From Thermodesulfobacterium geofontis (GTDB lineage: Bacteria; Desulfobacterota; Thermodesulfobacteria; Thermodesulfobacteriales; Thermodesulfobacteriaceae): 36,616 nt of DNA. The notes under the pieces are model-generated. The model saw nothing but the letters and a program-made list of their open reading frames with translations. It did no database searches and had not been told where the DNA came from. The stretch's first letter is position 1, and each line of letters opens with the position of its first letter. The translations under genes and the position numbers were made by a program. The stretch is from positions 1 through 36,616 of the forward strand of contig PNIK01000059.1 of the NCBI GenBank assembly GCA_002877985.1, written 5' to 3'. This document shows, piece after piece, positions 19,088-24,579 of the stretch.

Positions 19088-20812
19088 ATGAAAAATAAAG
19101 AAGTAGCAGAGATTTTTAATAAAGTAGCAGCGCTTTTAGAAATAAAAGGGGATAATCCTTACAGAATAAGAGCTTATCAGAAGGCAGCCCAAACTATAGA
19201 AGCACTCACCACAGATGTTGAAGAGTTAGCAAAGCAAGGAAAACTGGAAAAATTGCCAGGAATAGGTCCAGATTTAGCAGGAAAAATCAAAGAAATTTTA
19301 AAAACAGGGACTCTTTCACTTTATGAAGAACTGAAAAAAGAAATACCTTTAGTATTATTAGATTTTTTGGAAATTCCAAGTCTAGGTCCTAAAAAAGTAA
19401 AGGTGCTTTATGAAAAATTAGGTATTACTAATATAGAAGAATTAGAAAAAGCCTGTAAAGAGCATAAAATAGCTAAACTTCCAGGCTTTGGTTGGAAAAC
19501 AGAAGAAAATATTTTAAAAGGTATAGTCCTTTTTAGAGAAAAAAGGGGAAGAAGACCTCTTGGAGAAGTTTTACCTTTAGCTGAAGAGATAATGGAAATT
19601 CTTAAGAGAGAAAGTCCTGTTGAAAATATTGCTGTAGCTGGAAGTATAAGAAGAAAAAAAGAAACTGTTAAAGATATAGATGTTCTTATTACTTCTATTC
19701 AACCAGAAAAGGTAATGAAAAAGGTTACTGAGCTATTCTTAGTTGAAGAGGTAATAGCCTTTGGAGAAACTAAGACCAGTGTAAGACTTAAAACCGGTAT
19801 TCAGATGGATATAAGAGTGGTTGAACCTGATTCCTGGGGAGCAGCACTTGCTTATTTTACAGGTTCAAAAGCTCATAATATTAGAGTTAGAGAACTTGCT
19901 TTGGAAAAAGGATTAAAGATAAATGAATATGGAGTATTTAGAGGAGAAGAAAAGATTGCAGGAAAAACGGAAGAGGAAGTGTATGCCTCTGTAGGGCTTC
20001 CTTTTATTCCTCCAGAAATAAGAGAAGATTGGGGAGAAATAGAAGCAGCTTTGCAAGGAAAATTGCCTAAGTTGGTTGAATACAATGAAATTCTTGGAGA
20101 TGCCCATGTTCATTCTAAATACAGTGATGGAACTGCAAGTTTAGAAGAAATAATAACTAAAGCTGAAAAATTAGGTCTTTCTTGGGTAGCAATATGTGAT
20201 CATTCTCAGGGATTAAAAGTGGCAGGGGGTGTTCCGGTAGAAGATCTTTTCAAGAAAAAAAAACACATAGAAGAATTAAATAAAAGATCTTCTAAGGTTA
20301 AATTAATTTTTGGAGCCGAAGTTGACATACTTTCTGATGGAACTTTGGATTATCCTGATGAAATTTTAGCTGAAATTGATTTTGTTATTGCTGCCATACA
20401 TACAGGATTTCAGCAAACAGAAGAACAGATCACTAATAGAATAATTTCAGCTTTAAAGCATCCTTTGGTTCATGCTATTGCTCATCCTACAGGAAGAGTA
20501 ATAGGAGAAAGAGAGCCTTACGCAATAAATATGCCTAAAATTCTTGAAGTAGCAGCTCAATATGGTAAAGCTTTAGAAATAAATGCCTATTACAAAAGAC
20601 TTGATTTAAATGATGTAAATACACGAGCAGCTAAGGAAAAAAGTATACCTTTAATTATAGGAACAGATGCCCATTTTATAGATCAAATAGAATATTTACC
20701 TCTGGGTACAGCAGTGGCAAGAAGAGGCTGGTGCGAAAAAAAGGATATTTTGAATACTTTAACTTATGAAGAATTTATGTCTTGGCTTAAAAAGGTAAGA
20801 AATCAATTTTAA
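19088..20812 (+). CDS. polX: Family X DNA polymerase with PHP domain (PolX)
   Basis: HhH motifs KLPGIGPDLAGKIKEIL and LPGFGWKTEENIL; palm VAGSIRRKKETVKDIDVLIT and MDIRVV; PHP domain GDAHVHSKYSDGTASLEEII...AICDHSQG...GAEVDIL...HPTGR...GTDAHFIDQ. Confidence 0.94.
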   Translation: MKNKEVAEIFNKVAALLEIKGDNPYRIRAYQKAAQTIEALTTDVEELAKQGKLEKLPGIGPDLAGKIKEILKTGTLSLYEELKKEIPLVLLDFLEIPSLGPKKVKVLYEKLGITNIEELEKACKEHKIAKLPGFGWKTEENILKGIVLFREKRGRRPLGEVLPLAEEIMEILKRESPVENIAVAGSIRRKKETVKDIDVLITSIQPEKVMKKVTELFLVEEVIAFGETKTSVRLKTGIQMDIRVVEPDSWGAALAYFTGSKAHNIRVRELALEKGLKINEYGVFRGEEKIAGKTEEEVYASVGLPFIPPEIREDWGEIEAALQGKLPKLVEYNEILGDAHVHSKYSDGTASLEEIITKAEKLGLSWVAICDHSQGLKVAGGVPVEDLFKKKKHIEELNKRSSKVKLIFGAEVDILSDGTLDYPDEILAEIDFVIAAIHTGFQQTEEQITNRIISALKHPLVHAIAHPTGRVIGEREPYAINMPKILEVAAQYGKALEINAYYKRLDLNDVNTRAAKEKSIPLIIGTDAHFIDQIEYLPLGTAVARRGWCEKKDILNTLTYEEFMSWLKKVRNQF

Positions 20813-20820
20813 AAATAGCC

Positions 20821-23127
20821 TTGCAATATTTAGAACTTAAGGAAGTATATACTCATAATTTAAAAGGTTTTGACCTAAAAATCCCTTTAAATTCTTTAGT
20901 AGTCATAACTGGTCCCTCTGGATCCGGTAAAAGTTCTTTAGCCATCAATACCATAGCTGAAGAAGGTAAAAATAGACTTTTCCAGATATTAAATTATTCC
21001 CAAGAATTTAAGATTATTAATACTACTTCTAAGGCTAAATTTATTTCCCCTATACCTCCTATTATAGCAATGACTCAGGGAGTTAAATATTGGCATCCTT
21101 ATAAAACAGTAGGAGAATTTCTTTCATTGAATCAAATATTAAGAGTGCTTTTTGAGGAATTTGGAGAATATAAATGTTGTTTTTGTGGAGAATTTAACAA
21201 AGTTACTAATCCTAATAAAGTTATAAAGTGGTATCAAAGTTTAAAGGAGGGAGAAAAATTTTATTTTCTTCTTCCTCTTCCAGAAAGTACACCAAAAGCT
21301 TTGGAATTTTTATTATCTCAAGGGTACACTAAATATATAGTTGATAACAAAGAAATTGATTTATCTGAAGAAAGTATTCCTACTAAATTTGACAATATTT
21401 TTCTTTTACTTGATAGAATGATAAAGGAAAAGAGATCTACAGAGAGATTTTTAGAAAATCTAAAATTAAGTCTGAGTTTAAATCAGGGAAGGATAATTTT
21501 GAGATTTTTGGATGGAAAAGAATATTTTTTTAATCTTAAACCTATTTGTTTGAAATGTGGAAATCAACTTTTAACAGAATGGACAAAATGTAAATTCTGT
21601 AGAGGATATGGTTATAAAGAGAAAATAATTTGTAAAAATTGTAAGGGCTTAAAATTAGAACCTGTTATACTAGAGAGCAAACTTTTTGGAAATACTTTAG
21701 AAGGTTGGTTCAATTTATCAATAAAGGAATTTTATTATACCTTAAAAAGTTTGAAGATCTCAGAGGGACTTAAAATCTGGTTTGAGTCCTTATTTTTTAA
21801 ATTAGAAAAAGCTTTATTTTTAGGATTAGATTATTTAAAGCTTTCAACCCCTGTTTTTAATTTATCTGTTGGTGAGAGAAAACTTTTAGAGATACTTCTT
21901 ATTTTTGGAGCCAATCTTAATAAAGTACTTTATATATTAGATGAGCCTACACTTGGGCTTGATATAAAGAAAAAAGAAAAACTTCTTTCAATTTTAAGAA
22001 ATTTAATAGAAAATGATAATTCAATAATTCTTATAGAACATGATCCTTATATAATTGAAAAAGCTGATTATATAATAGAACTTGGTCCAGAAAGAGGAGA
22101 AAAAGGGGGATATTTAATAAAAGCAGATTTTAAAGAAAGGTTTTTAAAAGAGCCTGATACTTTAACTTCTGAATATTTAAAAGGAAAAAGAAAACTCAAA
22201 AAAATGCTCTTAAGTAAAGAAAAGACAGAATTAATTAGTATTTTCTTAAATGATCAAAAAATAGACTTATTAAAAAGGGGCATAAATCTAATTTTTGGGA
22301 ATATAGGAAGCAAGAAAACTTTATTTTTTGAAAAACTTTATGAGAATTTAAAGAAAAAAGGAGAAAAGGTTTTAAGAGTTGAGGTTAAGGATTTTAAAGG
22401 AAAAGATGAATTATTGATAAGTTATATAGGTATTTGGGATGATTTAAGAGAAATACTGATAAAACTTCCTTCTGCAAGAATGAAAGGATTTACCAAAAGG
22501 CATTTTAGTTTTTATACTAAAGAAGGGGTTTGTCCAGCTTGTAAAGGTAAAGGAAAGAAAATTTGGGAGACGGAAATTTTAAAACTATGTACTATTTGTG
22601 AAGAATGTTTTGGCAAGCGTTTAAATCCTGAGGTATTAAATTTAACTTATAAAGGATTTAAAATTGCAGAAATTTTTGATTTTACTGTAGAGGAAGCATT
22701 ACCTATATTTGGTAATATTTATCAAATAAAAGAAAAGGTAGAGTTATTAAAGAAATTAAATCTTTCCTATTTAAAATTGGGTCAAAGTATTGATGAACTT
22801 TCAGGAGGAGAAAGGGAAAGAATTTTTATAGCTAAAAAACTTTCCACTAATGTTAAATTTGATTATTTATTTTTGGAATTTCCTTTACAGGGGTTGCATT
22901 TAGAAGATCTTAAATATTTTACTAATTGGTTAGAAACTTTAAAAGAAAAAGATATTACTATAATTTTTTTAGAAACAAACTTATTGGCACTTTTCTTAAG
23001 TGAATGGATTATAAAAGTTAAAGAAGGGGAACCAGAATTTATGGGATATTCCGAGGATTTTTTAAAAACCTTAAAAGAAAAAGATTTTAAAAAAGAAGTT
23101 TTGTTTTATCAAAAATTTTTTAATTAA
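20821..23127 (+). CDS. Shortened UvrA paralogue (ABC ATPase); second nucleotide-binding domain degenerate
   Basis: N-terminal Walker A GPSGSGKSSLAINTIAEEGKNRLFQILNYSQEF, LSVGERKLLEILLIFG, LYILDEPTLGLD, ILIEHDPYIIEKADYIIELGPERGEKGG; Cys pairs CLKCGN...CKFCRGYG...CKNCKGLKLEP, CPACKGKGKK...CTICEECFGKRLNPEVL; C-terminal LSGGERERIFIAKKL. TTG start assumed. Confidence 0.85.
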   Translation: MQYLELKEVYTHNLKGFDLKIPLNSLVVITGPSGSGKSSLAINTIAEEGKNRLFQILNYSQEFKIINTTSKAKFISPIPPIIAMTQGVKYWHPYKTVGEFLSLNQILRVLFEEFGEYKCCFCGEFNKVTNPNKVIKWYQSLKEGEKFYFLLPLPESTPKALEFLLSQGYTKYIVDNKEIDLSEESIPTKFDNIFLLLDRMIKEKRSTERFLENLKLSLSLNQGRIILRFLDGKEYFFNLKPICLKCGNQLLTEWTKCKFCRGYGYKEKIICKNCKGLKLEPVILESKLFGNTLEGWFNLSIKEFYYTLKSLKISEGLKIWFESLFFKLEKALFLGLDYLKLSTPVFNLSVGERKLLEILLIFGANLNKVLYILDEPTLGLDIKKKEKLLSILRNLIENDNSIILIEHDPYIIEKADYIIELGPERGEKGGYLIKADFKERFLKEPDTLTSEYLKGKRKLKKMLLSKEKTELISIFLNDQKIDLLKRGINLIFGNIGSKKTLFFEKLYENLKKKGEKVLRVEVKDFKGKDELLISYIGIWDDLREILIKLPSARMKGFTKRHFSFYTKEGVCPACKGKGKKIWETEILKLCTICEECFGKRLNPEVLNLTYKGFKIAEIFDFTVEEALPIFGNIYQIKEKVELLKKLNLSYLKLGQSIDELSGGERERIFIAKKLSTNVKFDYLFLEFPLQGLHLEDLKYFTNWLETLKEKDITIIFLETNLLALFLSEWIIKVKEGEPEFMGYSEDFLKTLKEKDFKKEVLFYQKFFN

Positions 23128-23316: not shown

Positions 23317-24579
23317 ATGAAAGAGAGTTGGGATTGGGAGACCAGGAACAAAGTTATTGCCAATATAAAAGAGTGGAAAGAAAAATTTATCGATATAAGA
23401 GAGCTTACTCCCTCTCCTGATGGTGAAAAAATTGCAGGAATAGTTCAGCCTGAAACAAGAAAGTTTACACTTTGTGTTAATGGAGAAACTTGGGAAGATC
23501 TTTTTGATAGAATGTATTCACTTAAATTTAATTTAGATAATGAACCTATCTGTCTCGGATATAGCGATTATCAATGGACAGTAATTATTGGAGATAAGGG
23601 AGAAACTCGTTGGGAAAATACTTTTGATATGATGTGGAATTTAACTTTAAGTCCTGATACTAAAAGCATAGCTGCTAATTTTAGAACTCCTGAAATGACT
23701 CAAGGAGTAATTTTAAATGATCAGCCTTGGGAAAATCTTTTTGTTGAAGTAAGAGATGTGATAATGAGCCCTGATGGAAAGAGAACCGCATCTCGTGTTC
23801 AGATAAATCCAAGAAGAGAATTGGATATCTTTTGGTTTTATGAAAAAAACTATACTATAGCAGTTGATGGTATTCCTTGGGATAGTTCTTTTTTGAGTGT
23901 TTATGGGGGTGTTTTTAGCGATGACGGGAATCATGTGGCAGCTTGTATAATGACTGACCTTTCTAAATACACTATAGTAGTTGATGGAAAACCATGGGAT
24001 AAGGAGTTTGAAGGATGTTGGGAACCTATCTTTGTTCCTGGAAGTTCTGATGTTATAGCTCCTGTTCAAACTCCACAAGGTTGGACCCTTGCTAAAAATG
24101 GAAACCCAATATGGCCCTATTTTCTACAGGTGTGGAAACAAAAGTTTAGTTCAGATGGAAAGAAATTAGCAGCAGTAGTAACTTTATCTCCTGGAGAGTG
24201 GACTGTAGCTGTTGATGGAACCCCCTGGAAGACTACATTTAATCAAATGGTTTTAGATCCTATTTTTAGTCCAGATGGTAAAAAAATAGCAGTAGTAGTA
24301 AAGCATAATAATAAATATACTGTTGCTGTTGATGGTAATCCTTGGAGTGAAACCTTTGATAATGTTTGGGACCCTGTTTTTTCACCTGCTGGAGATAAAA
24401 TTGCAGTAAGAGCAGAAAGAGATGGGAAATACTATCTTGTTGTAGATGGGAAGATAGGTAAGGAAGCCTATGAATGGTTATGGGATCCTGTGTTTAGTCC
24501 TGATGGTTCAAAAATTCTTGTTAGATGTATTAAAGATGGAAAATATTGTAGAAAAGTATTTTCTATTAATGAAATATAA
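23317..24579 (+). CDS. Trp-rich beta-propeller-like repeat protein (TmcD-like), first gene of the Hmc-type operon
   Basis: About ten repeats of ~40-45 aa with consensus WDPVFSPDGKKIAVxxxxxxKYTVAVDGxPWxxxF; no signal peptide visible. Confidence 0.7.
   Translation: MKESWDWETRNKVIANIKEWKEKFIDIRELTPSPDGEKIAGIVQPETRKFTLCVNGETWEDLFDRMYSLKFNLDNEPICLGYSDYQWTVIIGDKGETRWENTFDMMWNLTLSPDTKSIAANFRTPEMTQGVILNDQPWENLFVEVRDVIMSPDGKRTASRVQINPRRELDIFWFYEKNYTIAVDGIPWDSSFLSVYGGVFSDDGNHVAACIMTDLSKYTIVVDGKPWDKEFEGCWEPIFVPGSSDVIAPVQTPQGWTLAKNGNPIWPYFLQVWKQKFSSDGKKLAAVVTLSPGEWTVAVDGTPWKTTFNQMVLDPIFSPDGKKIAVVVKHNNKYTVAVDGNPWSETFDNVWDPVFSPAGDKIAVRAERDGKYYLVVDGKIGKEAYEWLWDPVFSPDGSKILVRCIKDGKYCRKVFSINEI

Follow-up and report, generated by a model that had tools for sequence, protein, structure and literature searches.

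Canonical (class I) UvrA proteins combine the UvrA fold and two nucleotide-binding domains (NBDs) with a UvrB-binding domain that carries zinc module 1, an insertion domain, and two ATPase sites that are functional by motif. The proximal site is formed by ATP-binding domain I and signature II, with a Gln five residues before that signature stacking on the adenine, and the distal site by ATP-binding domain II and signature I (PMC6486640). In the class II proteins (D. radiodurans UvrA2, Ecm16 and DrrC) it is the UvrB-binding domain and zinc module 1 that are missing, and the insertion domain is present (PMC10192343). Here we describe a UvrA paralogue, named C, that is encoded at 20821..23127 (forward strand, as are its parts and polX below) in a 36,616-nucleotide stretch of Thermodesulfobacterium geofontis DNA (contig PNIK01000059.1 of assembly GCA_002877985.1, analysed whole and called the window). 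Judged from its sequence, C is a real, conserved and functionally constrained UvrA variant whose domain pattern is the inverse of that of UvrA2 and Ecm16, since the UvrB-binding domain is present and the insertion domain absent. Its function we infer from comparative data. A literature search found no description of such a UvrA, many subscription papers lying outside the scope of that search.

The open reading frame specifies 768 aa from a TTG start. The protein scores 401 bits against NCBIfam TIGR00630, not reaching the equivalog cut-off of 729.8 bits, and is similar in sequence to solved UvrAs. An AlphaFold2 model (pLDDT 87.9, pTM 0.82; input alignment of 28 sequences) has as its top PDB match chain A of 3uwx, a UvrA-UvrB complex (TM 0.81), and by model and match C has the UvrA fold and two NBDs. 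Profile, fold and motif positions thus bear out the preliminary description of the window, which had been made from the sequence alone and had called this gene a UvrA paralogue. The motifs lie where it had placed them, and their columns agree across C, the genome's other UvrA and further UvrAs in a joint alignment, which disposes of misaligned motifs as an explanation. That other, full-length UvrA, whose presence had been set as a check on the paralogue assignment, is a tandem-fused protein of 1754 aa with four intact NBDs (contig C13 of the same genome, locus L011, 1455-6719). C is accordingly not the sole UvrA for nucleotide excision repair. The first and second halves of the tandem protein are called A and B below. 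The B half lacks an insertion domain and most UvrB-docking residues, which makes the protein an asymmetric UvrA dimer within one chain; A and B are encoded by separate, overlapping genes in f3 genomes (L071). UvrB, UvrC and Mfd are also encoded. The two mfd pieces of this assembly are due to a contig break and are not two genes, full-length Mfd being found in all 12 relatives checked.

The damage in C is, by motif, limited to one composite ATPase site. In the joint alignment every element of the proximal site is intact. Domain I contributes Walker A GPSGSGKS (residues 31-38, 20911..20934), whose Gly/Lys/Ser core is invariant among C orthologues, Walker B ILDEPTLGLD with its catalytic Glu (372-381, 21934..21963) and the H-loop IEHD (405-408, 22033..22044); signature II, LSGGE (660-664), is intact and preceded by Gln655 (22783..22812). 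Every element of the distal site is altered. Walker A of domain II is degraded to GNIGSKKT (493-500, 22297..22320), Walker B reads FLEFPLQGLH and has lost the catalytic Glu (684-693, 22870..22899), the H-loop reads LETN and has lost its His (717-720, 22969..22980), and signature I is an off-consensus LSVGE (348-352, 21862..21876) in which the adenine-stacking Arg, five residues upstream, has been replaced. Because signature I is off consensus and the Arg before it is gone, it is the whole composite distal site that has decayed and not NBD2 alone. The asymmetry that had been proposed, an active-looking NBD1 and a dead NBD2, therefore stands, with the refinement that the signature I side of the dead site has decayed too: by motif C is a one-site ATPase.

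The domain losses are equally selective. The UvrB-binding domain with zinc module 1 (C119, C122, C243, C246; 21175..21558) is retained, scores above the PF17760 cut-off and has invariant Cys. Zinc module 2 (C257, C260, C271, C274; 21589..21642) has had the insertion domain excised, leaving 10 residues between its Cys pairs versus 106 in the A half, and PF17755 (the insertion domain) is matched nowhere in the genome but in the tandem UvrA. Loss of this domain had been anticipated from a shortened stretch assigned to the first zinc Cys pairs; the loss is confirmed, the stretch belongs to module 2, and the UvrB-binding domain is untouched. Zinc module 3 (C571, C574, C593, C596; 22531..22608) is kept and its conserved hairpin residues (E. 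coli M753, F755) are lost. All 12 zinc Cys are invariant in the C family alignment. The comparison with 43 reference UvrAs (drawn from several phyla and including a few short or UvrA2-like proteins) shows how uneven conservation is along C. Of the 8 strongly conserved positions in the UvrB-binding domain it has 7 (A has 6, B 4), but it has just 3 of 23 near Walker A2 and 7 of 40 near Walker B2/H2. Most of the conserved residues at 698-701, 734, 753 and 755 are gone. R712 and positions 722 and 730 belong to a published DNA-binding set of UvrA (PMC3025350); C has R712 and a basic residue at 722, and position 730 is changed.

Is such a protein a live gene product or an artefact? Orthologues of C occur in 38 of the 41 genomes sampled from the source order, some as contig-end fragments. 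C is missing from G012 and G029, both incomplete genomes, and from G020, which at 99% completeness has likely lost the gene. Pairwise dN/dS is 0.15-0.17 for C, 0.08 for the tandem UvrA and 0.05 for polX (simple counting method; synonymous change is large in the wider pairs). C is thus under purifying selection and evolves faster than the tandem UvrA, and orthologues and dN/dS together rule out a sequencing or pseudogene artefact. In the tree C is one clade separate from A and B, so that it is not a recent copy of the B half, which also lacks the insertion domain; owing to long branches the deep order, and with it the placement of C, is less than secure. A branch with 99% support sets C and the UvrA relatives without insertion domain from other families of the phylum together on one side. 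Decay of the distal site is graded across families. The f2 orthologue retains its Walker A, the Walker B Glu and the H-loop His; those of f3, g3, g4 and g5 keep Walker A and have lost the Glu and His; in g2, g6 and part of the source genus Walker A is degraded as well.

The retained UvrB-binding domain raises the question of its partner. In published work R216 and E222 of UvrA are taken as the interaction surface for UvrB, and R165, R181 and F185 of Mfd as the matching surface (PMC3025350). By alignment these Mfd residues correspond to UvrB R196, R213 and F217, with UvrB E215 between the last two. The C residues D198, R199, R209, E212 and K215 (21409..21465) correspond to E. coli UvrA D205, R206, R216, E219 and E222 (the numbering used from here on), and all are kept except the last, where the charge is reversed. 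Only 14 of 121 columns of the UvrB-binding domain are invariant in C. In genera g1, g2 and g6 UvrB has changed: E215S is found in 20/20 and position 217 is mostly Trp (F217W). In those genomes the A half is without D205, R216 and E219 in 20/20, with R176, R206 and E222 kept. Mfd there has retained Asp/Glu and Phe at the matching positions in 20/20, and all 18 of 18 C sequences have D205, R216 and E219. In C these three residues are kept where Mfd has the Asp/Glu and UvrB does not, which could suit docking on Mfd, but E222 is charge-reversed. In g4, g5, f2 and f3 E215 of UvrB is unchanged, and D205 and R216 are present in the A half wherever they could be read. The B half has lost most docking residues everywhere. 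Because A and B tolerate the loss of D205, R216 and E219, these residues are not needed for the fold. The simplest reading of the alignments is that the A half follows UvrB and C follows Mfd, a pattern that may reflect physical partners. More widely, relatives outside g1, g2 and g6 keep Glu215 and Phe217 in UvrB (altered UvrB loci include L081, L214, L216 and L217).

What C has lost (insertion domain, distal ATPase site, zinc-3 hairpin residues) are the lesion-sensing parts of UvrA. C is probably a docking factor that does no lesion sensing of its own. The preliminary description had suggested a specialised UvrA-like sensor; a specialised UvrA-like factor is supported, and a sensor is unlikely since the known lesion-sensing parts are gone. 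In the mechanism we favour, C would be a UvrA-type ATPase that has given up lesion finding and kept partner docking and one ATP-driven switch. At a stalled RNA polymerase its UvrB-binding domain would engage the UvrB-like module of Mfd. C would dimerise as UvrA does, and its one live site, the proximal one, is presumed to hydrolyse ATP and so to drive the hand-over of the place to UvrB or the main tandem UvrA. We put the chance that Mfd is the docking partner at somewhat below even, and hold with the same reserve that C is an adaptor in transcription-coupled repair. The adaptor role is favoured because deleting the insertion domain of E. coli UvrA hits global repair harder than transcription-coupled repair (PMC3025350), and because a UvrA brought by Mfd need not find the lesion itself. 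The UvrB-binding domain is required for both routes, and a distal-site mutation lowers both and abolishes neither (PMC3025350). A further step, which we offer a little more hesitantly still, is a division of labour in which the tandem UvrA, holder of the only insertion domain, and UvrB find lesions while the one-site C is dedicated to Mfd-driven repair.

Several observations weigh against Mfd as partner or against a non-sensing C. Of 30 C sequences, 28 have Arg or Lys at the E222 position, and binding to Mfd and to UvrB alike could be weaker for it. The joint shift of UvrB and the A half is probably one evolutionary event and so one data point, and the docking pairs were assigned by alignment. 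A review has engagement of UvrA by Mfd-RNA polymerase involving the distal site (PMC7835731), and that is the site which is dead by motif in C. Some genomes (G087) appear to depend on UvrAs whose insertion domain is shortened, so that loss of this domain is by itself no proof of non-sensing. G020, nearly complete, does without C, and at the loci examined no gene neighbourhood links C to mfd.

The best-placed alternative is that C docks on UvrB and not on Mfd, acting through its proximal ATPase as a UvrB chaperone, loader or unloader while the tandem UvrA finds the lesions. In its favour, the UvrB-binding domain and R206/R216 are kept, it is to the proximal site that UvrB loading has been tied (PMC7835731), and in two f31 genomes (L297, L298) uvrB lies about 1.5-4 kb upstream of a UvrA gene without insertion domain. 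Yet where UvrB has lost E215, in g1, g2 and g6, C has not changed with it as the A half has, and the Arg/Lys at E222 of C would face Arg194 and Arg196 of UvrB, both always Arg (a presumed pairing). We regard docking on UvrB as rather unlikely.

A second alternative, less likely again, makes C a weaker repair UvrA that still binds DNA and is redundant with, or a partner of, the tandem UvrA. It gains from the distribution of domains across genomes. Scanning the genome collection with the single C protein gave no match, and with the C family alignment brought up, for the most part, canonical and tandem UvrAs, together with some whose insertion domain is shortened. By counts of PF17755 and PF17760, three UvrB-binding domains are present in nearly all sampled genomes that have a tandem or paired UvrA; the third is part of a UvrA that either has an insertion domain or, like C, lacks one (one phylum, uncorrected for relatedness; G191, G238, G050, G115 and G047 are not exact fits). 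From this pattern C occupies the slot of a canonical UvrA in some related genomes. The retained R712 and the basic residue at 722 speak for this alternative too, as do the partial repair left to the E. coli distal-site mutant (PMC3025350) and G087, which seems to rely on one UvrA with its insertion domain cut to 31 residues. What tells against such a role is that insertion domain, distal site and zinc-3 hairpin residues have been lost together, and that C evolves faster than the tandem UvrA. Separately, the scan showed that in otherwise canonical UvrAs of one family of the phylum and of Aminicenantes and Nitrospirota assemblies the insertion domain is cut to about 20-31 residues (L190 of G087; L085-L088), and that of G087 appears to be its sole UvrA.

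Three further explanations fare worse. C could act as a decoy or negative regulator, limiting repair by keeping UvrB or Mfd occupied; a kept docking surface with the DNA-sensing parts lost speaks for it, but a plain decoy has no use for an invariant proximal ATPase site, and we think this improbable. That C is a gene in decay and soon to be lost is very improbable. The progressive distal-site loss and the G020 genome could be cited for it, but reading frames are open in nearly all orthologues, the dN/dS values are low, and the proximal site and all 12 zinc Cys are invariant. The preliminary description had raised a resistance-type factor for this short UvrA-like protein alongside a full UvrA. 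A role in drug resistance like that of UvrA2, DrrC or Ecm16 can be set aside on domain content with a negligible chance of error, because UvrA2 and Ecm16 lack the UvrB-binding domain that C keeps and need for DNA binding the insertion domain that C has lost (PMC10192343).

The neighbours of C say little about it. polX (DNA polymerase X family, PHP domain; 19088..20812) lies directly upstream, its stop at 20812 and the start of C 8 nt further downstream, and the two had been taken for a repair-linked unit. The spacing is as described, but polX directly precedes C in the source genus (except G007) and in G022, and adjacency of any kind is limited to that genus and some sister genera, in several of which a GGDEF gene intervenes. 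This CBS-PAS-GGDEF gene stands between polX and C in G007, G014 and most g6 loci, and at the loci examined in g4, g5, f2 and f3 C has unrelated neighbours and no polX next to it. The linkage is thus confined to part of one family and is not a conserved operon of the order. The gene after C (23317-24579) encodes a WD40-like (PD40) beta-propeller protein, and beyond it are iron-sulfur and multihaem cytochrome genes, likely of a respiratory complex and not repair-related. At L049-L053, several relatives with the CBS-PAS-GGDEF gene have a multi-pass membrane protein, YeeE/YedE-like by eye, just downstream of C. In other families, related UvrA genes without insertion domain (L300-L305, L297, L308) are convergent with Fo ATP synthase a/c genes, which points to long vertical inheritance; being an Fo ATP synthase operon, these conserved neighbours are uninformative about function.

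The roles of the proximal and distal sites and of the insertion domain of UvrA are known mainly from mutants. C brings such mutations together in a protein that has been retained in evolution, and its families provide graded intermediates. Should C bind Mfd, these bacteria would divide global and transcription-coupled repair between two UvrAs, in parallel with eukaryotes, whose transcription-coupled repair can do without the initial damage-recognition factor. C would then offer a natural means of studying UvrA docking apart from lesion sensing.

Compared with known systems, C shares with class I UvrAs the fold, two NBDs, three zinc modules, UvrB-binding domain and intact proximal site, and differs in its missing insertion domain, dismantled distal site, lost zinc-3 hairpin residues and coexistence with a tandem UvrA. 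Its likeness to class II is that of a short UvrA paralogue beside a main one. Tandem-fused UvrAs (NCBIfam NF001885/PRK00635 type, a model of 1809 positions) come close in one respect, for in this order their second half likewise has the insertion domain cleanly excised; that half, however, has both ATPase sites intact, has lost most UvrB-docking residues and forms a separate clade. Heterodimeric ABC exporters have one canonical composite ATP site and another that is degenerate across both contributing motifs. C resembles them in its one degenerate composite site, and differs in being a soluble repair protein with both sites in one chain and, compared with ABC proteins with a degenerate site, in that many members from the source family have lost the Walker A of the dead site as well.
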